DNA of 64,000 bases from Lotus japonicus (taxonomy: Eukaryota > Streptophyta > Magnoliopsida > Fabales > Fabaceae), in contig NC_080044.1 in assembly GCF_012489685.1 (NCBI RefSeq), positions 27,384,369-27,448,368 on the forward strand, read 5' to 3'. Position numbers and translations under genes: made by a program. Below, piece after piece: positions 8,473-53,830 of this stretch (position 1 is the first letter of the stretch; the number at the start of each line of letters is the position of its first letter). Below the pieces are notes generated by a model, which did not search any database, had not been told where the DNA came from, and worked only from the letters and a program-made list of their open reading frames with translations.

Positions 8473-9723
8473 TGTAAGATCAAGTTTTGATCATGTAGTA
8501 CAACTCTATGTTTTGATGATTACAAGTTAACGTTTTAGTATGAACAATTATGGTACTCTAACGTGTTTTCTGAGTGTGTTCTTGACAGGCTCTGACCTTG
8601 ATATAATCTCACCCAAATCAGAAGCACTTTGCTTAAAGAGTAACCCTAGCAACGCTTTCGCAATCTCTATGTTCAATCTGAACGTAGAAAAGCTTCAGAA
8701 GATCTGAAGATAGCTAAGCTCTGATGTGGACTCAGCTCACTTGAAGTTCTGAAGATCCAGACGATCTGAAAACCCAGACGCTCTGAAGGTCCAGAAGCTC
8801 TAAAGGTTCAGAAGCTCTGATGGTCAAGAAGCTCTGATGGTCTCGATGCTCTGAAGATCCAGAAGCTGAAAAGTGAAGACTCTGAAGTCCAGAAGCAAGC
8901 TTGCTCTGAAGACCAAGTGCTTCTCCTCTGGGTTCAGAATCAAAAGTTACAACGGTCAGAGGATTCATGCTTCCCTCTGACTCTGATCAACAAGCTTCAC
9001 AAGTTCCAACACGAAGCGTCCCTCTGATCAGAAGTCAACAAGGTTAAAGGTCACGTCACTATCCAAAGTACAAAAGCAGTGTACTATCCTGACGACCTAA
9101 CCTAACGTTCTCAGCCACAGCAGAAGCTGGAAAACCCAGATCTGCCCTCCAACGGTAGCATTCCCATGCAACGTTCAAACCCTAATCCTTGGAGTATATA
9201 AAGAGGCTGAAGACTGAAAGATGCGGTCTAAGAAACATATACGCGCAAGCAATATTCAAATCTTCTTAGCAATCTTTCTTCAAATAGAACCAAGTGTGTT
9301 TACTATCAGCTTTTGTAGAAGCACTTATTTGTAAACCCAATACTTTCAAACAGTTGTTTGTTTTACCTTTAGGAGATCAAGGTTGATCGGAGCCTAGAGA
9401 AGACTAAGAGAGTGAATCTTAGTGTTAGCTAAGTGAGTGTATTGTTAGCCACTTTGCAGGTAGCAAGTGCAGTTGTAACAAACTCTGATTAGTGGATTGC
9501 CTTCATTCTAAGAAGGAAGAAATCACCTTAACGGGTGGATTGGATTAGCTTGAGGGATTTATCAAGTGAACCAGGATAAAATCATTTGTGTGCTTTCCTT
9601 ATCTCTTATCTCCGCACATTTATCTTGGCGATCGAAGAGATTTGTTTAAATCTCAAGCGGGTTAAGTTTTAAGTTTTAAAACGCTATTCAAACCCCCCCT
9701 TTCTATCGTTTTTCATACCTTCT
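8473..9723 (+). repeat. 3' LTR of Sirevirus element 1
   Basis: About 1.25 kb from TGTAAGATCAAG to CATACCTTCT, following the polypurine tract directly. A TATA box, TATATAAAG, is at 9195-9203; a C-rich run (about 9692-9699) lies near the end. The expected terminal CA reads CT here, perhaps by mutation. It is highly similar to the reverse-oriented solo LTR at 1213-2424, so both belong to one subfamily (A). Confidence 0.88.
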
Positions 9724-15242: not shown

Positions 15243-17617
15243 ATGATAGAAGGCAGAAATGGAGGCTATGGCAGGGAGGCTCCGCCGTGGTGGCAGCGAC
15301 CATGGAGTCACCGGGCAAGGAATTTCGCACGGCGTAAGGAAGAGGAGCAAACAGGGCGACGACGTGAACATTTTTTCTGGGGTTCCAAACAACCTTCAAA
15401 CCAGAATGAGGGACAACAACTTTATGGAGGTGCTCGTGCTAGACAATGGAAGCAAAATGGAGCTTCTAGGAATTATTCAGAAAGAGAGATCCGGAGAGAT
15501 AGATCAGGGAGGTTTCAATCGAATTGGCAGCCACCACCAAATTATCAAGGGGGTGCTACAAAATCCAGGCAACAGCAAAGATCCAATCAGTTAAAGGAGT
15601 CCTTTTCAGTTTTTGTGGATGGTTTGGGAGATAGGATGACACTACAGAAATTAAGAGCAATCTTTGTGAAGGCAGGGAGGCTTCGGCATGTGTTTATTCA
15701 ACAAAAGAAGAAATATCAAAGACGTTTTTGCTTTGGATTCTTGCGTTTTTACAGTGATGTTGAGGCATGGAAGGCGATTCACATGTTCCATGGCATGCGG
15801 TTAGACGGTAATTATCTTGTGATTCAGAAAGCGAAGATTCAACGACCATCTTCCTCACCTACGGTTCCTTCATCAGGGACACATAATTTTGAAGCCAAAC
15901 GGAAGGTGTGGAGACCAAAAACACAGCACCAGAAGAATGACCAAGGTTTGCTAGAAGATAATAAGGTTATTTCAGTTCAGACACAAGGTGCTGCTTTCCA
16001 GTCTGAAGAGTGCCAGCTACGTCTCGCTGCGTCTGATGTGGATGAAAAATGGGTCCAGAGATGTGCTAGGGCACGCACTTTGCTGTCTATGCCTGTGGAA
16101 GTCTTACAGGAACAATTCAGTCAGATTGGCTTGTTTAACTTTCGATTAATCCCGCTTGGTGCAGATGAAGTGCTCTTGGAATTTGAAAAGAAGGAAGAAA
16201 TGGAATAGGCAATTGCAGAGTGCAGCTTTTTCTTAGAGCAAAAATTGTACGATATTAAGCCTTGCACTGTCTTTTCTTTTGGCATCGTACAACATGTCTG
16301 GATTCGTCTGTGGCAGGTTCCGTTGGGTTTATGGACTGAATCGTTTTTCACTTCTGTTGGAAATAGGCTAGGGACCTATGTTATGTCTGATTCTGCTACC
16401 TGTTTGCGCCATAGAGCTGATTTTGCTCGCATTTTGGTACGTATGCATCATCCGATTCTACACAGTTTTACCATGTCGGTTGATGTTAGTGGAACATCGT
16501 GCTAGTTCTGGTTGAGAAGGATCTGGTAGCGTATGACTATGGGACGGTAGAGGCCATGTCGTCGACGCCAGTCAAAATCTACAACTCAAAGGATGATGAG
16601 AGCTATGATGACGGGAGTATGGGGGACGTTGGTAGAGAGGATGGTGCGGGTTTGTTGGATGTGCAAAACCCTCATGAAGAAGATTACGAATCTGCAGTTG
16701 ATGATTAGGTTTACAGGGACGGCGTGACGGAAGGCTTACAGTTTTGTGGCGGTTCAGCGTCGGAGGGAGCGATGGCGGCTATGTGCGGGGTGCTGCCGGA
16801 GGGGGAAAATTTTCCGGCGAAGGAGGATAAGCCAGCGGCAGTTACGGAGATGATCAAGGCGTCAGTTACGGGTGAGGGAGTTGAGAAGAATTCGAATTCA
16901 AATGATTCAGGAAATATTCAAATCGTGGAAGCCATCAAGTCAGGGGAGGAGCAGAAGGAACGTTTAAAGGTGCTCATTGATTCTCGTTATACGTTAGAGG
17001 AGATTAAGGAGTGGAGGAACAATTTAAAAGCTGAAGATATCTGTTTTAATGGGAATCAAATCTTAGATAAATATATTCAAAATCAAGATAAAGGATTTGC
17101 AGTTACTGGTTATTCTTTTAATGCTCAGGATCTGATTCAGAAATCAAATATTTGTTGGCCTTTAAAACAACCAAATTAGGCCCCGCAGAAATTAACTCAG
17201 TTAAATGGGGTTGGGTTATGTTTTCCTGGCATAACAACTCAACAAAAAGGGTTTTTGGGTATTGAGAAAACTTCAGCATCTTTGCCAGCTTCTGAGATGT
17301 GTGGCATTACGGACGTTTTTGTTCACACGTCTCCGCACCAAATAATTCGTCAACGCGCATCCCCTTCTGCTACTGTGCGTCTCACCTCTTCTCTAGTGTC
17401 GCCATCCCCAACGTGCTTCCCTCTCACGTGTTCCCCTGGCCCTCATGCTTCTGTTGATCTGGCGACGCCGGCAGTAAAGAACTCACCAAACACAAAGTCT
17501 ACCACGAAGAGTTCTCAGCGAGGACGCCCCAAGGGAAGTAAAAATAAGCCTCAACCTCTCCCAATCGATTTTTTAGAGCTTGTACAGGGGGAAAATGGAG
17601 TGTCAACTAGGGCTTAG
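15243..17617 (+). pseudogene. Plant LINE ORF1 (RRM-type nucleic-acid-binding protein)
   Basis: From ATG 15243 a basic, Arg/Gln-rich leader precedes an RNA-recognition motif at about 15606-15840 (FSVFVDGL at one end; FCFGFLRFYS is the RNP1-like strand). A DUF4283-like region with WIRLWQVPLGLW follows (about 16280-16350). The frame is broken by TAG at 16206-16208, a stop at 16503-16505 with a frame change, and TAGs at 16706-16708 and 17177-17179. Near the end lies an AT-hook-like RGRPKGSKNK (about 17521-17550), then TAG at 17615-17617. ORF1 proteins bind LINE RNA; this one is not functional as it stands. Confidence 0.8.
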
Positions 17618-22168: not shown

Positions 22169-25100
22169 TGTAAGGCCCAAGTTTTTAAGCTTATGCTAAG
22201 TGAATAAATTTCTTATTCACGATTAGGGTTGATGTAATGTGAAGGGAAACCTGAACAAAAGTTTATTAAATGAAATATATTTATGAAGGAGAAAGTTCGG
22301 GAAAAGTTTAAGGATTGCATCATGATCGACAAAAGTTATAGCACGATCGTTATACGCGTAAACCTAGGTCAGAAACCCTAGTAAATAGCTAGTTTTCACT
22401 TTTAGGCACGATGGAAGTTAATTCCAAAAATCTTCAGAGAAATGTTAGAACTTCTCTTTTTCCATATATCACAATCGTTTCGAGGCGAAACTCTAGGATC
22501 TACGAATGTCCGATTCCAATCATCGGAAGTTTGCCGAAACCGAAACCCTGGTATTTCAAAACCCTAGAATCACCCGACTAAGAGGACTTTTTCTATTCGG
22601 AACATCAAATGAAGATTCCACACGCGTACACCCATTTCTCTTGATGATTTCAATCTTTCTTCAGAAGGAAGTTTTCTATTCCGACATTCGATGCAAAAAG
22701 CAACTTATCGGGTAAAATAGTTTTACACCGACTTTGCATTAGTTGCCAAAAATGCAAGGAAACCTCTTTTTAGTTTTGGAATTCTTTCGCCAAAACATAT
22801 CTTAGAATTCATGGAGAATGACGCCAGAAAAATCAGATTCGCGAAACTTTCATTTTACCGCGTTTTGCCAACCTCTATATATAGCCAAGAAATGAGAAAA
22901 AAAACACAAAACCATACCCATTTTCTCTCTCAAGGCCGCGAGTTTGCTAAGGAGGGGAGGAGAAGAGATTTTGTTCAATCCTTGCTTGATCGTTGATTAA
23001 TCAGTTGTTGCTTCAAGGTTTCGAGGTATAGTCGCTAATCCTTACCTCTGATCGCTTTTTCCATAGCTTTTCTGTAGACTTTTCTGAGCTGATAGTTTTG
23101 AGGTTTTTGCAAAACTATCCTGAATATTTCATTTTTGATTCTAAACATCTTCCTTACGTGCCCAAGATCACTTCTGCCGGATTAGTTTTTCCGTTATGTC
23201 GCCGAAACTCCGCCGGAATCAATTTTAGCCTCAAATACCCATTTTTGGAGTAAAGCTTCAACCTTTGGGCTGAAAACTATCGCCTTAGCTTAGTGCTAGT
23301 AGGATTAGTTGTCATAAACGCCGTTAGTGACGTCCCTGTCAAATTTGCTTTTTGGGATTTCAGTTTTGAAATTCTAAGTTAAAAATCTTGACCAAAATAC
23401 CCCTGCGACAGTTTTTGATCCGATAATTTTTCCGAGTTTAGAATACCCTTAGTTACGGCTAATGAAAGCATAGGAACCAAGTTTGATCGAAGAAAAATCG
23501 AGCCCCACAATTACCAAAAGTGGCCGAGCCCTATAGGGGGGAGGAGGAAAATTCCTTTTTCGAAAACTTGTCCTTTCGCGCTAGATTATCGTACCTCGGA
23601 GTATGTATTACTTCGTGTAACCTTAGTAAGTATTGATAGCTTAGTTTCCGATAGATTCTGATAGTATTTCTGTGGTTTTGCTCTAAAGGTGATTTCGAGG
23701 AATTCCCAGAGGAGCAAGGCTTTGTTTGTGAAGAAGTGTTAGAAGATCATCCTGGAGAATCTTCAGGTGAGGGCTACTCACTGAATCTCTAGTTAATGCT
23801 TAGGGTCGATGCTTTCGACATTGTTTACTGTTTATGCACTTGTTTGTGTTTGATTGGAAAAATGTTTTCTGAGGCTTCGGCTGACAATGTAGATGATTCA
23901 TCTACTGAATGTTTTTGAGAGTGAATTACATGCTAAGTGCTAAGTGGGTAATTTAGGATGTGTGATGCATGCCTTATATGTTAAGTGCTATGTGGTTATT
24001 GCATAATATGTTGATATATGACATGTTGATTGATTGTGCTGAGTTAATTATGCTTTTGCAATGAAATCTGAGTTTCTGAGTAGTGAGAATAGCGAGCAGG
24101 TCATGCCGATTTTATTTTGAGAGTTTTGAGAAAGTTTGATAGGACGAATGAGATTCGGGCCTTGTTATGGTTTTGATGGATCGAGACATTCTCTGGAGTC
24201 ATTTGGGGATTAGGAGATCCCGAGAACTTATAGGATTTGCGATAAGACTAAAAGGATAATTATTTTGTAAAGAAAACTCATAAGACATTAAACAACCTCT
24301 AAATCTTTAAATAAAGATAATAAACTCGAAAGGAAGCTTTGGATGCAAATCTTAGTTTTGGAAAACGAGAAGTGTCGTCGGATCCAGGTTTCTGGGAAAC
24401 CATTGTGCGTTGGCACTTTGCTCGATGAGCAAGTTTTATTGGTTGGCAATTCCAAGGGATGAGCCGAGAAGCTTCACTGAGGCGTGAGACCTTGTGAATG
24501 CGTGATACTCCACTGAGGCGTGAGACCTTGTGGAAAGCATGGATCTTCACTGAGGCGTGAGACCTCGTGAATAGCATGAAGCTTCACTGAGGCGTGAGAC
24601 CTTGTGAATGCGTGATACTCCACTGAGGCGTGAGACCTTGTGGAAAGCATGGCTCTTCACTGAGGCGTGAGACCTCGTGTACAGCATGAAACTTCACTGA
24701 AGCGTGAGACTTCGTGCAAGTGTGTAAATTCACTGGGGCGTGAGACCCCGTGAAAGCATAAAACTTCACTGAAGCGTGAGACTTTGTGAATGTGTGAGAC
24801 TCCACTGAAGCGTGAGACTTCGTGAGAGCATTGATGACTCGAAGAGTTATCGTGAGTGTTTGCACTCATTTTATGATTAATTGTATTTTGTCGCAGAATA
24901 GACTTTTACCTTAGGGTATGCTTTTTAGAGACAATAAGTTAGCTAGAACACGTGGCGACGTGTCGAGTGAGGTCGGAGACGTTGTTTGGCTAATCACTTT
25001 GCATTCATGCATACATGGGAGGTTAATACACGGCGTGATTACCGGACCTTCGTCGGTTTCCAAAAATGGTCATAAGACCCGGAATGCCGTGTAAGAGCGT

Positions 25101-26187
25101 TTGTAGACGACTCTTGTAGCAGACCAAAATGGCAGACCTTCGGGTTTACTGCTGATCTGGCTACCTTTGTTTGGTGTAAGAGGCACGCGGACAGAAATGG
25201 TCCCACCGTTGCTGGTGCTAGGATTGATCCGTTTGATGTCCATCCGTTTCCGGAATGCATTTGGTTAACTGGGTTAACCGCCATATCATTTCATGCAACA
25301 TGCATACTGACTTAGTTGTTGAGTGTGTTTGATAAGTGATAAACCTATTTGATGCATGTTATTTGTTATTATTGTTGTTTATAATCATTGTGGAGTATGC
25401 AACCTTAGGATGTTATCTCTAGCTATAAGCCTAAATGGCTATTCTATTATTTGTATCTATCCGTGCTATTATTTACATAATTCTTTGGAGTTGACCCTCG
25501 CGTCTTCTGTGTGTGTTTTGGCGGACAAACGCCCTTTGTCAGATGTCTTTGGCGGGCTGGTTCACGACGGTTCACCCTTCGGGGGAAACTAGGTTGAGAT
25601 GCTGGAACAGGAGCGCATCGCGGTTGCGAGAGGAGGACGGATGGTGTACATAGACTAGGTCGTTCTGGATTTCGAATTCGGACGACGATCATGCTAGCAT
25701 GTAGGATTGAGTGTTAGTGTGAGTTCCTCGAGATGGGATTAGTGTAGGAGTAGAGTCTTAGCTCTGAACATCATTTGTTCTCTCTGGGAACAGGGTAGTT
25801 TCCCGCCTATAGCTTTTTGTGTGGTTTCTTTATGGGAATCACAGAGAGTTGGTTGGACTTAGGAGGTCTTTTCAGGCCGATGGGTCAGCTTATTCTCAGT
25901 TTTGAGGATGGTGTTGCGGACACTTCACCCTTATATTTGGTTTGTATATTTTGCCTACGGGCGTTACATCTTTCTCTTTTCCCGTCACTGGAAGTTTACT
26001 CGTGACGTGGTTAGTTACTTACAGCGGGGGCTGTATTATATATTGTATATTAGTTCTGTTGTCTCTCGCATTTGCGTTTATTTAATTCAGTTTTGTCTTA
26101 GTTATTATCAAAAAAAAATATTCACGTTTTTCTGCAATAAGTTTATTTTGATTACTAAAGTGACGCCACCGAAATCGGGGTGTTACA
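22169..26187 (+). mobile_element. 4.0-kb solo LTR of a large LTR retrotransposon
   Basis: The 4,019-bp insert starts TGTAAGGCCC and ends GGGGTGTTACA. It is flanked by AGAAA on both sides (22164-22168 and 26188-26192), which is the 5-bp duplication of an LTR retrotransposon. There is no gag or pol, no primer site and no coding region. A TATA element, CTATATATAGCC, at about 22875-22886 gives plus-strand sense. The GTGACGCCACCGAAATCGGGGTGTTACA-type end is familiar from large plant Ty3/gypsy LTRs; assignment to a lineage is inference. The interior carries a tandem hairpin array (24475-24824). It could alternatively be a non-autonomous large derivative lacking its own LTR pair, but no internal repeat pair was seen. 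Confidence 0.8.
24475..24824 (+). repeat. Ten-copy tandem array of covarying hairpins
   Basis: Ten copies of a 36-37-bp unit start at 24475, 24511, 24548, 24585, 24621, 24658, 24695, 24731, 24767 and 24803. Each holds CACT-stem-CGTGAGA-stem-GTG, where CAC pairs with GTG and a 4-bp stem closes the invariant 7-nt loop. Stems are GAGG/CCTT (copies 1, 2, 4, 5), GAGG/CCTC (3, 6), GAAG/CTTC (7, 10), GGGG/CCCC (8) and GAAG/CTTT (9). All ten pair, counting G-U. Copies 1-3 and 4-6 form a higher-order repeat of about 110 bp. Confidence 0.85.
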
Positions 26188-26819: not shown

Positions 26820-29800
26820 ACCATGTTATCCATTGGTTGGTCATCATCGGTGTTGCGATACTAGAAGTAGCAACTGCAATGGCTATCTTCCCTTCAGATC
26901 TCACTTTTGCAAGGATGGTTCTCCAAAGGTATGTTTTCCCTATTCCACCTGAACCATTCACAAATTACAACTTACCCAAATTAGAGTTGATCGATTGAAG
27001 AACAACATCATGAATTCCTCTTTGTTCTGAATGTAGACCATAGAACAGTTTACAATATTCCTCATGCATTTTCAACTTGTCATAGTTCAACTCTTTACTG
27101 ATAAGACGGTTGGTCATCTGTGTCCTTAAATTGCCATCAGGAATGGGCATTCCCTGGTAATCTTCTAGCGATTTCCCAGCTTTTGCAAGAGTCTTTTCCA
27201 TTCCCAATAGTGCATAGTTTTTCACTTGTTCATCTGACAATTGAAGGTTGGGGAAGTTTAATAAGCGGCGTTGACTGTATAAAATGTCTTCAGAAAGTAT
27301 CTTCCAATTTGATTCCCAAAGTCGTTTTGGATCAATGACCTCACCGTGTATCAAAATTATTGTAAACAGTTCTCGAAGTTGTATTCTAGTATGCCAAATT
27401 GCACTTTCTTTTATGCAATCATCCCATTCTTTATCATCGTCTAATAAACCTAGAGTATAACATGCACTCTTGAAAGTGGGATGTAAATAACCGTCAACAG
27501 TTCTTAATTCTTCATATGAACAACTACCTCGAACAATGTTGAGAAGGATTCACAAATAATATTTTTCTCCACTTGTTGGCTGCACATAGTATATTCTACC
27601 AAGACATCTGCCCTTACGCCTCCTTGTCCAAATCTTCTTGCTTTTTTTCCAAACATATTTTGTAGGGAATTCAGAATATGTGAGTTTCCGAGCCTCCATG
27701 TCCTCATTATTCATTTTCATCCACTCAGTAAACATGGTCCTTTCAATTCCTCGCTGAAGTAAAATATTATCAACCCGCATACCTTCTGGAAAGTAAATTG
27801 TTTGTTGCCCTGGGAGGTAGAAGGATAGTCGCTCGACTGCCAGTTCTCGATAAAATATTCTAAATTCAAAGATTCTCGAAGCAGCCTCAGAAGGAGAAAT
27901 ATATCTGCAATCAAGGTATTCTTTTATTTCATCACGTGCTTTCATCAATTTTTGTGAAGTACTTCTTGAGTTGCCAGCATCAGATGTTACTGCAGTAACT
28001 CGATCAGGGCCTTTGTTGATGTATTTGAATAAATACTTAATTGATCTTGATCGGTTGCAGAGCTCAACATTTATATGTGCATCATATTTAACCAAGAAAT
28101 TCCTATTATAAGGGACCACACTACGATTGTCAAGTTCAATGTCATTTTTCACAATGCGTCTACCATTGTTCCTACGCATACATTTAGGGAAACCTTCTTC
28201 GTCAAGTGATGTTTTGACACGAAATTTCTTTGGATAATGCTTTGAGCATTTTCCATCCACCATACAAGGAGAGTTTTGGTTTTGAATGCTACAAGGTCCA
28301 TGAACCATGAATCTGTCTACTGCACTTAAAACAACAGGATCAAGCTCTTTATCTGGAATTTCAGCTGAAATAATGTGATCAATCTCTGATGCTAGCTGGA
28401 TTTTGTCATCTGGATGCAAGAAAAGTAATATATGTGTGTGTGGCAATCCTCGCTTCTGAAATTCAACTGTATACACCACTAATGGTAAATAAAAAATAGT
28501 AAAAGTCAAAAATATGATCCTAATAATTCCACTAAATATTATAAAATTTAAAACACAAGTTATTCTTTCAGCAAGAATTTTTTTTGTCTAATGTCATCAT
28601 AACAAAACATTGATTAATGCATTTGGTGCTCAAACAGAGTAGATTATTTATACTATATTAGGATGAATAGTATACCTGCAACAACTCTTCCAAAGATGTG
28701 TTGACGTTTTATGACGTCATTAATAAGTTCGTTTAACTTTATGGAGAAAACCTGGCTGAATATGTCAGGTCTATCTCCACTCTTTTGTCCTTCAATACTT
28801 TTAGTAAAATATTCGATCTCAGGCCACTTTGGATTACATGTAAACGTGATGAATAAGTCAGGATATCCAACGTAACGACATATTGCCATCTCATCCTGTG
28901 TATAAGCATAAGGTTAGATCCATGACTTGGAAGACTATAGTATTGAATGTTGTTAATATGTGAGCATAAGTAAATCTATGTGTTGATGGTCTATTAACTT
29001 TTGGCATAATGATGAAAGGAGTTTTGTTTGAAATTAAGTCACAAAAATATTGATGGTAGTGATGTTCATGATGAAAGAAAACATATAGAACAAAAGAGAT
29101 TAACATTTGTTGTTTACCTGGTAATTTTAGACCCTGTATCGAGGGCCACCATAGTAACTTGAAGGCAATATTGTCATTCTACCAACTTTATCTGTCATCA
29201 CATCTCCTTGGTTGATGGCATCTTGTAATCCGCTATATAACTCTGCACGTATTTGTTTTTGATTGTTTCTAACCCAGCTAAGATTTCGTTCTTCTATGCA
29301 AGGATAAGCGTCCACCAAAAATTGTTGGAACAAACGACCAGCTCGAAGAAAAACTTGTGACTCTCTAGCTCTTTGTTGTAAGCGAAAAGCATAATACTCC
29401 CTAATTGTAACTGTTTCTTGTTTGTAGCTTTTTCCATTCTCTGGATTATGATGACTTATCCCCAACCTAAAACCATCCTCCCCATATGGGAATAATAAGG
29501 GATATTGTAGTGCCATGAAACTTGGATGCAATTCTGTGATTCTTTGAAGACCACTGGCTTTGTGCTAAATAATAATGTCACGGTGTGTTTCTACATGTGT
29601 TGATGGTTGAATTAAGAGTGCAGCAACTTCTGAGCAAGAAGGTAGGTTATATTGTCTTCCATTAGATGACCTATTGCGAATCAACCTTAGTTTCAAATCT
29701 TGAATTCCATGTTGACAGTATGTATCTCGAACTATTCTATAAGATTGAACCAAGACATTGTCCTCACCAACATGTGCAAAAGATCTCTTACAAGGTTCTC

Positions 29801-52339: not shown

Positions 52340-53830
52340 AAATTTGTCTATTGTATTTGATACATCGATTAATATTTTAAATTATAAAATATTTAAAATA
52401 CTAAGAATGTAATAATAATCATAATAAAGATGTAGATATTTAAAGAGCACAAATTCAGACACTCAATTTTAGTGTTTTGTAAGCATACACTTCATTAACT
52501 AATATAAAGTTTTTGAAAAACACTGAAGTTAATAAGCCAAAAGCTTTAAGTTTTGCATATGTGACGTATAGCTGAATTTTGTTTGTGAAGATGTATACTC
52601 ATGTTGCATAAGGGGTAATGCTTTTGTGTTTTAGATATGTAACAATACATAAATATATAATTATTGTTTAAATTATTAAAAATACAGTTAAGTTATATAA
52701 AGAATGAATTTTTTTTTAACTCCTACAAATTTTCATTTTACATATAAAATGTTCCTCCTCGTGAGATCTCGTAACTCTAATTTGTTAGCACTAAAAAATT
52801 TATGTCATAATTTTATAGTACATATGTATTAATATTTTTTATTCCTCGTACTTTTCTTACTATCCAATTATTATAGTTATAAACACATATAAATATACAC
52901 TGACTATTTAGAATTATTCAATTTGTATATATTTTATTAAAAACAACATTCAATACGATGCTATAACTAATAAAATAGGGTCAGGAATAACAAAGTGAAG
53001 TATGCAACTTTAGATGACACTATGTTAGAGAACTATATCACTGTTGATTAAACAACAAAACTACATGCATATGTATACAGTAACAAACACTGAAGTTGTT
53101 AAATTCTAGAGTGCAGTCCACAATATAGAGAAGGCAAATCCAAAAAAAGAAAGGTGAGCAATAACAATGATCACAATTCAAATAACATATCAAAAACATA
53201 AAACACAAAACGGTTTTTATTTCTATGTTAGCTTACCTCTTCAATCAATTTATTCATCATTCACGGTCTCTGAAACAGACAGCTTGAAGGTCATCCTTGA
53301 GAAGGATCTGTGCGAACATAGCAATTTCAAAAATTCTCACATCGAACCTGAGTCAAAACACGTTTACTCTTTGTCAGTCAGGAAAAAGTTAAGTAAAAGT
53401 CAATCATTCAATCAAGAAGACAATCTCCATGGATTAAAGGTAGCATAAAACATCATAAATAGAACAAAATTTTGTATATGAAAAGGGAACAAAGCAAGTA
53501 GATACTAATAGAAACAAATCTAAATTATATCTCAATGAGATAAGACTACTAATAAACTAATCTAACAAATAACAATAAAAACAAAACAAAATCATTAAAA
53601 AATAGTTTTTTATATATGATTTTTTTTTCACGGATAACTATATATTATTTTATAACTTTTTAAAATAATAATTTTAGATTTTAAAATATTTTAACCAAAA
53701 AATAGTTGTTATCCTATTTTCTCTAGCTATAAAATAAGGAATAAGGAAGGTGATGAGTGATGACCTAGTTAAAATTCTCCATAGCTAAAACAGTCAGCCG
53801 CTAGAAATTCAAATTTGCATTTGCTGAACG
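52340..53830. other. AT-rich region, possible non-autonomous Helitron body
   Basis: No gene recognised. A plus-strand open stretch at 53167-53448 encodes 93 residues without a known motif and is not supported. The last 100 bases hold the promoter-proximal region of the PPR gene, without an obvious TATA box. Confidence 0.4.

Follow-up and report, generated by a model that had tools for sequence, protein, structure and literature searches.

Tandem bulged hairpins with paired stem changes in a Lotus japonicus long terminal repeat are probably selected for structure

Palindromic repeated motifs (RMs), for example CACCGGACTGTCCGGTG, have been described as arrays in the long terminal repeats (LTRs) of plant Sireviruses (Ty1/copia), where 3 to 14 motifs per tabulated LTR differ in sequence between elements and are predicted to fold (PMC2829016). 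These motifs are drawn upstream of the TATA box, all but one of them carry a CGG-CCG core, and the listed consensuses are unbulged (PMC2829016). They have been interpreted as DNA cis elements and as regions rich in small RNAs (PMC2829016, PMC10760457), and maize Ty3/RLG elements are generally without an obvious structure peak (PMC10760457). Here we analyze ten tandem hairpins within a 4-kb LTR of Lotus japonicus, which lies in a 64,000-nucleotide stretch of contig NC_080044.1 (assembly GCF_012489685.1, positions 27,384,369 to 27,448,368 of the forward strand), hereafter called the window. The original prediction on this stretch knew of no described system of this kind; given the Sirevirus arrays, the closest in anatomy, that statement was too strong.

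Like the Sirevirus motifs, the array consists of multiple short inverted repeats within a plant LTR. Unlike them, it lies about 1.6 kb downstream, not upstream, of the only exact TATATATA of the LTR, the putative TATA box from which the start site is predicted. Its arms vary pairwise and have no CGG-CCG core, a bulge and a GNRA-type loop are kept, and within one LTR family unrelated arrays share a single site. Position and arm variation thus set the array apart from the Sirevirus motif family as described in PMC2829016. Retroviral packaging signals (psi) also place tetraloop hairpins in the 5' leader, with a GNRA-type loop reported for oligonucleotides of the HIV-1 AUG hairpin (PMC7599994), and our array would take a comparable leader position. 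However, psi comprises few distinct hairpins, for which binding of Gag and its nucleocapsid (NC) has been studied (PMC7599994), whereas 4-13 tandem copies of one hairpin are found here. A long structured leader combined with a Met-tRNA primer site would be shared with plant pararetroviruses, which are likewise reverse-transcribing elements, but their ribosome-shunt leader is one large stem-loop following a short upstream open reading frame (PMC5902531) and not a chain of small hairpins. The stem-loops of enod40 RNA, derived from tandem repeats, are also structured modules akin to repeats or transposable elements (PMC10578108), but they are single modules in a host RNA, in contrast to an array under paired change within the element itself. 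Among the open-licence papers listed, none described tandem covarying hairpins in an LTR leader in its title or abstract opening, which does not prove that no such description exists.

The window array, which we call type A, is a real feature, probably selected for its structure, and in this LTR family several different hairpin chains, type A among them, are found at that site. The enclosing 4-kb LTR was borne out by its termini, its length and the flanking target-site duplications (Table 1). The ten CGTGAGA-loop units were recovered where they had been predicted, at spacings of 36, 37, 37, 36, 37, 37, 36, 36 and 36, with the hairpins spanning exactly 24475-24824; Tandem Repeats Finder (TRF) places 10 copies at 24469-24831. 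Across the ten units the four inner pairs are unbroken, so the paired stem changes that had been read from the window hold for this copy (GAGG/CCTT four times, GAGG/CCTC and GAAG/CTTC twice each, GAAG/CTTT and GGGG/CCCC once each). CGTGAGA was indeed seen in all ten units, but its seven bases need not all be unpaired: in the fold a C-G pair closes a GUGA (GNRA) tetraloop, an A is bulged, and the stem has a bulged U. Beyond the ten units, the window has three further occurrences of the word, two on the plus strand, of which the one at 24821 overlaps the last unit and the other is at 52760, and one on the minus strand. TRF also reports a second period of 110 bp, units 1-3 being near-copies of units 4-6, and the ten units are therefore not independent. 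By itself the window copy is weak evidence for structure selection, and we thus turned to further LTR copies, the check that had been proposed with the claim. At the gathering cut-off, Rfam yielded no family anywhere in the window, and none up to E = 1 for 24340-24900 or for four related loci (L082, L083, L090, L062). The array unit had 0 matches in viral contigs and 0 in GTDB genome contigs.

The other copies were taken from the same genome (553.7 Mb, 65 contigs). An LTR search gave at least 87 matches, with 40 of 12,156 first-look candidates scored. Exact occurrences of the unit pattern CACTGRRGCGTGAGACYYYGTG number 11,633 genome-wide, compared with 0 for a reversed-pattern control. From 100 loci (298,016 letters, some overlapping), of which those from the unit-pattern search were picked for at least one matching unit each, we took 36 type A arrays. 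Units were called by at least 16 of 22 consensus matches and a neighbour within 120 bases, a rule that misses strongly decayed units; of 276 scanned units, 3 non-array matches (leaving 273) and one L072 unit were removed, leaving 272. One LTR was kept per recognised pair (L014/L015, L029/L030, L042/L048), and L062 and L063, possibly a further pair at a distance of 6.9 kb, were both retained. The arrays are not independent, because several are near-identical copies. They hold 4 to 13 units each and differ by whole units.

Over 272 units and 7 inner pairs, 1892 of 1904 cells pair (1747 Watson-Crick, 145 G-U), the rest being 6 A-C and 6 other combinations. Five of the seven inner pairs show two-sided alternatives: p2 (A-U/G-C, with G-C in 11 arrays), p3 (G-C/A-U, A-U in 29), C3 (C-G/U-A, U-A in 5), A2 (A-U/G-C, G-C in 4) and p1 (G-C/A-U, A-U in 3). 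Wobble intermediates are present for p3 and p1 (G-U) and for C3 (U-G). An outer pair, x2, alternates between U-A and C-G, yet is frequently unpaired. In contrast to the drifting stem, the bulged U is kept in 265 of the 272 units and the CGTGAGA loop in 241. The 31 other loops are CGGGAGA (11), TGTGAGA (7), CATGAGA (5), CGAGAGA (4), CGTGATA (2), CGTAAGA (1) and CGTGAAT (1); 23 of them, or 4 of the 7 loop kinds, retain the closing pair and the GNRA form, where random single changes would give a fraction of 0.38-0.48. Overall, 264 of 272 units have a GNRA-type loop; no p-value is attached to this retention because the units are not independent. A divergent subfamily (L042, L048, L062-L064) carries GNRA variants (CGGGAGA) and CGC/GCG and CAT/ATG outer stems, and L042/L048 also have repeated GTGTTGTATTGACCGACAC hairpins 5' of the array.

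We then sampled the site itself by means of a mark immediately 3' of the array (2,773 marks genome-wide), using the 28 LTRs at the head of its listing, a sample that misses the L042 subfamily and in which L091 and L092, 6.9 kb apart, may be one element. Type A was present in 9 of the 28 (8 already in hand, and L100), and other hairpin chains were present in 19. By reading, the 20 new LTRs comprise 1 of type A (L100), 4 of type C (L082, L084, L089, L090) and 15 with type B only. Type C, which has no relation to the window array, is a tandem array whose ~60-nt units each contain two stems, and both stems show paired changes (GAATC/GATTC versus GAGTC/GACTC; AATCC/GGATT versus AACCC/GGGTT). Type B is a chain of mixed short hairpins, extracted by BLAST with partial matches omitted and identical rows removed (38 of 42 stretches). 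In these 38 sequences 97.9% of the cells of 41 pairs are paired and the covariation score is 0.055, values that 0 of 500 shuffles reached in either case; two-sided changes occur in 4 pairs (reached by 10 of 500), as in GGAAA/TTTCC to GGGAA/TTCCC and GAGTAT/ATACTC to GAGCAT/ATGCTC. On a tree built from the upstream flank (32 of 38 sequences, 40 of 41 pairs), 5 co-changes were counted against 0.61 expected (p = 0.0005), a test that is not clean because controls slid by -3 and +3 columns also score. Stem columns changed 0.53 times each, compared with 1.95 for unpaired columns. Hybrid LTRs (L012-L015, L029, L030, L068, L080, L100), in which a few type A units are followed by a type B chain, look as if recombination exchanges hairpin arrays.

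If, as we assume, most copies are no longer mobile, stem changes private to one array should be neutral. The original prediction had named stem changes that break pairing as often as they keep it as the outcome that would refute it, and the result of this check is divided. Among kinds of variant common to at least two arrays, 8 keep pairing and 1 breaks it, whereas of 13 private changes 9 break pairing and only 4 keep it, as decay would give (random expectation 0.18-0.43 kept); the contrast, with a hand-coded list of shared variants, is significant by Fisher's exact test (one-sided p = 0.010). Counted per cell, breaks number 1 in 84 for haplotypes found in at least 3 arrays and 9 in 168 for private haplotypes. 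A tree-aware covariation test on 71 distinct type A units ranked the stem pairs p3, C3 and A2 as the top three of 300 column pairs, with E values of 0.07, 2.7 and 4.3. Taken together, the other LTR copies support the part of the claim that structure is kept over sequence, while the wobble argument from the window only is unsupported.

The array had also been placed downstream of the LTR's TATA box, and this agrees with what we find: TATATATA lies ~1.6 kb upstream and is kept in 30 of 30 LTR copies (L001-L030), with CTATATATAG in 29 of 30. Transcription would start ~30 nt past TATATATA, which in the window is followed by a pyrimidine-rich stretch; such a stretch after the TATA box is typical of plant leaders. 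With the two AATAAA words just 5' of the hairpin region as poly(A) signal, the array may fall at the beginning of U5. There are 62 ATGs from 22918 to the LTR end, 7 of them within the array. In a two-LTR relative (L014/L015, on C5) with a 5-bp duplication GCTGA, TGGTATCAGAGC stands immediately 3' of the 5' LTR L015, and we take it to be a primer site of the Met-tRNA type in its usual form. This relative (C5:22988583-22999415) has only ~3 kb between its LTRs, with many stops in the 1.5 kb examined, and is probably non-autonomous or decayed. A chromodomain, which would point to a Ty3/gypsy chromovirus, was suspected by eye in a 71-aa piece before the 3' LTR of L014, but Pfam, with this the sole piece scanned, gave only CPxCG_zf at E = 0.071.

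On these grounds we consider it fairly likely that selection acts at the RNA level, with plus-strand RNA the likely molecule, and we incline to the reading that the array is a chain of hairpins, selected for their structure, within the 5' leader of the genomic RNA of a plant LTR retrotransposon. The window array would then be one version of such a leader chain, presumably transcribed. Selection in transposing lineages would keep the fold, that is, a short stem, a bulged U, a GNRA-type loop and about ten repeats, while the stem sequence drifts by paired changes beneath the kept shape, and other hairpin chains could take the array's place, one array replacing another. A kept loop and bulge, a stem drifting pairwise and 4-13 repeats fit a protein that reads shape and loop. 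The repeats may form an array for multivalent binding of a host RNA-binding protein or, to serve packaging or dimerisation, of the element's own Gag nucleocapsid. The Gag nucleocapsid would be the likeliest partner, because the RNA that it packages would carry the array in its leader; a role in Gag binding or packaging in particular is nevertheless somewhat doubtful, and the alternatives are a host protein that binds RNA and control of splicing or of translation.

Several findings weigh against this reading or qualify it. In the window, perfect arm matching by chance has a probability of 0.0012 for ten units, or 0.007 for seven with the duplicate triplet removed, figures that linkage makes too optimistic. 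Every inner-stem wobble there is a C-to-T change in CpG (CTCG to CTTG), so deamination accounts for these wobbles as well as RNA pairing does. The variants that had been explained by G-U wobble do keep pairing, but, being CpG transitions, they give no plus-strand evidence from the window alone, and the strand argument falls to other pairs. Among the genome copies, the counts for C3 (511 U-G, 456 U-A) are mostly copies of a few ancestral events, 99 of 100 listed U-A units being one 22-mer. The removed L072 unit is a genuine break, with a one-base stem deletion, and the haplotype AAAG/CTTC, found in 3 arrays, breaks p1. In the tree-aware covariation test no single pair reached significance (best p3, E ~0.07), and type A co-changes on the tree lie at the border of significance, 3 being counted where 1.03 were expected (p = 0.07), or 4 where 1.46 were expected once two outer pairs are included (p = 0.046). 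In 3 of the 4 type C copies the loop-closing pair of one unit (AATCA-GAG-GGATT) is broken. For type B, the controls slid by -3 and +3 columns score 4 and 3 co-changes against 5, which we take as block changes in one loop; the -3 slide has more two-sided cells than the structure itself (14 versus 8), and its count of pair types was equalled or exceeded in 182 of 500 shuffles. Packaging signals are not usually tandem arrays, and a looser TATATATT at 26037-26044, downstream of the array, is a candidate promoter. As for the strand, the wobbles lean to plus: type A without the CpG pair p1 has 15 G-U against 3 A-C cells (11 against 3 array-pair combinations), although p3 and C3, both inherited kinds, supply 12 or 13 of the 15 cells and 9 of the 11 combinations. 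Type B has G-U in 12 of its pair columns and A-C in 4. Fold z-scores point the other way, being more extreme for the minus strand in 30 of 30 segments with an array or chain; the presumed reason is that the plus strand, rich in G+T, yields shuffles that themselves pair well. In four segments of the window's own array the strands are about equal, and the z-score was rejected as a strand test.

Among the rival explanations, the one that survives best, although we hold it unlikely, is that the repeats are cis-regulatory palindromes at the DNA level, namely dyads for transcription factors or cruciforms with no role in RNA. Palindromic arrays have been described in LTR control regions (PMC2829016, PMC10760457). 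The present inverted repeats pair mainly by Watson-Crick rules and are even more prominent when the minus strand is folded, and if TATATATT at 26037 were the promoter, the array would lie upstream of the start. Dyads bound by protein usually have conserved arms and a free spacer. Here it is the arms that drift in pairs, with the bulge and loop kept, and the array lies downstream of a TATATATA present in all 30 copies, whereas the Sirevirus motifs lie upstream of the TATA box. The non-CpG wobbles, with the inherited share given above, also lean to the plus strand.

Rather unlikely, too, is a neutral tandem repeat, in which a few old paired accidents were spread by unit duplication and transposition and the wobbles are CpG decay. 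The units are strongly related, the window needs just two arm-pair changes, its inner wobbles are CpG, and the single-pair tree-aware tests are not significant. Against it, five inner pairs of type A vary two-sidedly, unrelated chains at the same place do likewise, shared and private changes differ in their pairing, and the first three of the 300 column pairs are stem pairs.

There is little chance, in our judgement, that mutation without selection made the pattern, through template switching during DNA replication or by reverse transcriptase that copies one arm onto the other. Such switching can create and repair hairpins, with paired stem changes like those seen here (PMC8794818), and an error-prone spot could give hairpins at the same place in unrelated arrays. 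Arm copying should, however, remove the bulge and transfer several bases at a time, and the bulge's retention in 265 of 272 units counts against this process. The two-sided changes here are single pairs, with neighbours and the asymmetric loop intact and no inverted-copy tracts leaving perfect stems; wobble intermediates exist for C3, p3 and p1; in type B, a stem column has fewer changes than an unpaired column; and upstream segments of the same LTRs (26 segments) have plus-strand fold z-scores of -1.49 to 2.14. Equally improbable is splicing control, with the chain inside an intron (AGGTGAG at 23765 to TCGCAG at 24896) whose structure keeps part of the RNA unspliced as genome: AGGTGAG and TCGCAG occur once each in the LTR, AGGTAAG and AGGTATG are absent, AGGTGAGGGC is kept in 26 of 30 copies and the acceptor-like 19-mer TTTTGTCGCAGAATNGACT occurs 2,773 times genome-wide, but the sites were read by eye only, acceptor-like TTTCAG is also found at 23358 and 25870, the L042 subfamily is without TCGCAG in the ~140 nt read past the last loop, and this role, being itself at the RNA level, overlaps with the leader-chain reading.

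Table 1 Positions of the LTR, its hairpins and associated sequence words in the window
Feature	Position	Strand	Remarks
Left target-site duplication AGAAA	22164..22168	.	
Solo LTR, 4019 bp, TGTAAGG...TGTTACA	22169..26187	+	TG..CA ends; AGAAA duplication on both sides; related LTRs genome-wide
TATATATA, putative TATA box	22876..22883	+	only exact TATATATA/TATAAA word in the LTR
AGGTGAG, 5'-splice-site-like word	23765..23771	+	could bracket the array with TCGCAG at 24891-24896
Two AATAAA words (24310, 24319)	24310..24324	+	5' of the hairpin region; possible poly(A) signal
Short hairpin GGTTTC-TGG-GAAACC	24387..24401	+	5' of the array
Short hairpin GTGC-GTTG-GCAC	24405..24416	+	
Short hairpin TTGCTC-GAT-GAGCAA	24418..24432	+	resembles the type B chain hairpin TTGCTCGTTGAGCA
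Type A array, ten bulged 22-nt hairpins	24475..24824	+	stem CAC-(bulge U)-GRRG / CYYY-GTG, loop C-GUGA-G-A
Type A hairpins 1-5	24475-24496, 24511-24532, 24548-24569, 24585-24606, 24621-24642	+	
Type A hairpins 6-10	24658-24679, 24695-24716, 24731-24752, 24767-24788, 24803-24824	+	
Small hairpin ACTC-GAA-GAGT	24837..24847	+	3' of the array
Small hairpin GAGTG-TTTG-CACTC	24854..24867	+	3' of the array; similar in other copies
Right target-site duplication AGAAA	26188..26192	.	

Within the LTR, an exon-like stretch around AGGTGAGGGC (23680-23795) may be a short coding exon or a leader splice donor. A minus-strand open reading frame across the array (24584-24865) was dismissed as spurious, none of 159 word-sharing protein candidates matching at E <= 1. 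Helitron-like gene pieces adjoin the solo LTR on the minus strand (26965-29531), with Helitron_like_N matches at 27550-28509 (under the Pfam cut-off) and 29127-29531. Elsewhere in the window are a tandem array of 17-bp units GAAGCTCTGAAGGTCCA (8743-8896, 7.4 copies) and an open frame with an RRM domain (15243-16208; RRM_1, E = 6.2e-9).

Beyond the single chain, we entertain, with low confidence, an exchangeable multi-hairpin cassette, in which unrelated hairpin families are amplified in tandem and swapped at one fixed leader site. Gag or a host factor would then need multivalent local structure with a defined loop, not a sequence. If true, the cassette would be an array of rapid turnover that serves packaging or counters silencing, and its thousands of copies in a single genome would form a natural archive of how RNA structure evolves. 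To our knowledge, the cis-acting RNA of plant LTR retrotransposons has hardly been mapped. With 11,633 exact units and 2,773 LTR marks in one genome, decaying copies provide an internal neutral control, and selection on RNA structure thus becomes directly measurable. If unrelated hairpin arrays truly replace one another, structure would be kept without sequence, giving a target for packaging, translation or silencing. The family bears, too, on the question why retroelements retain hairpins from which the host may derive small RNAs.

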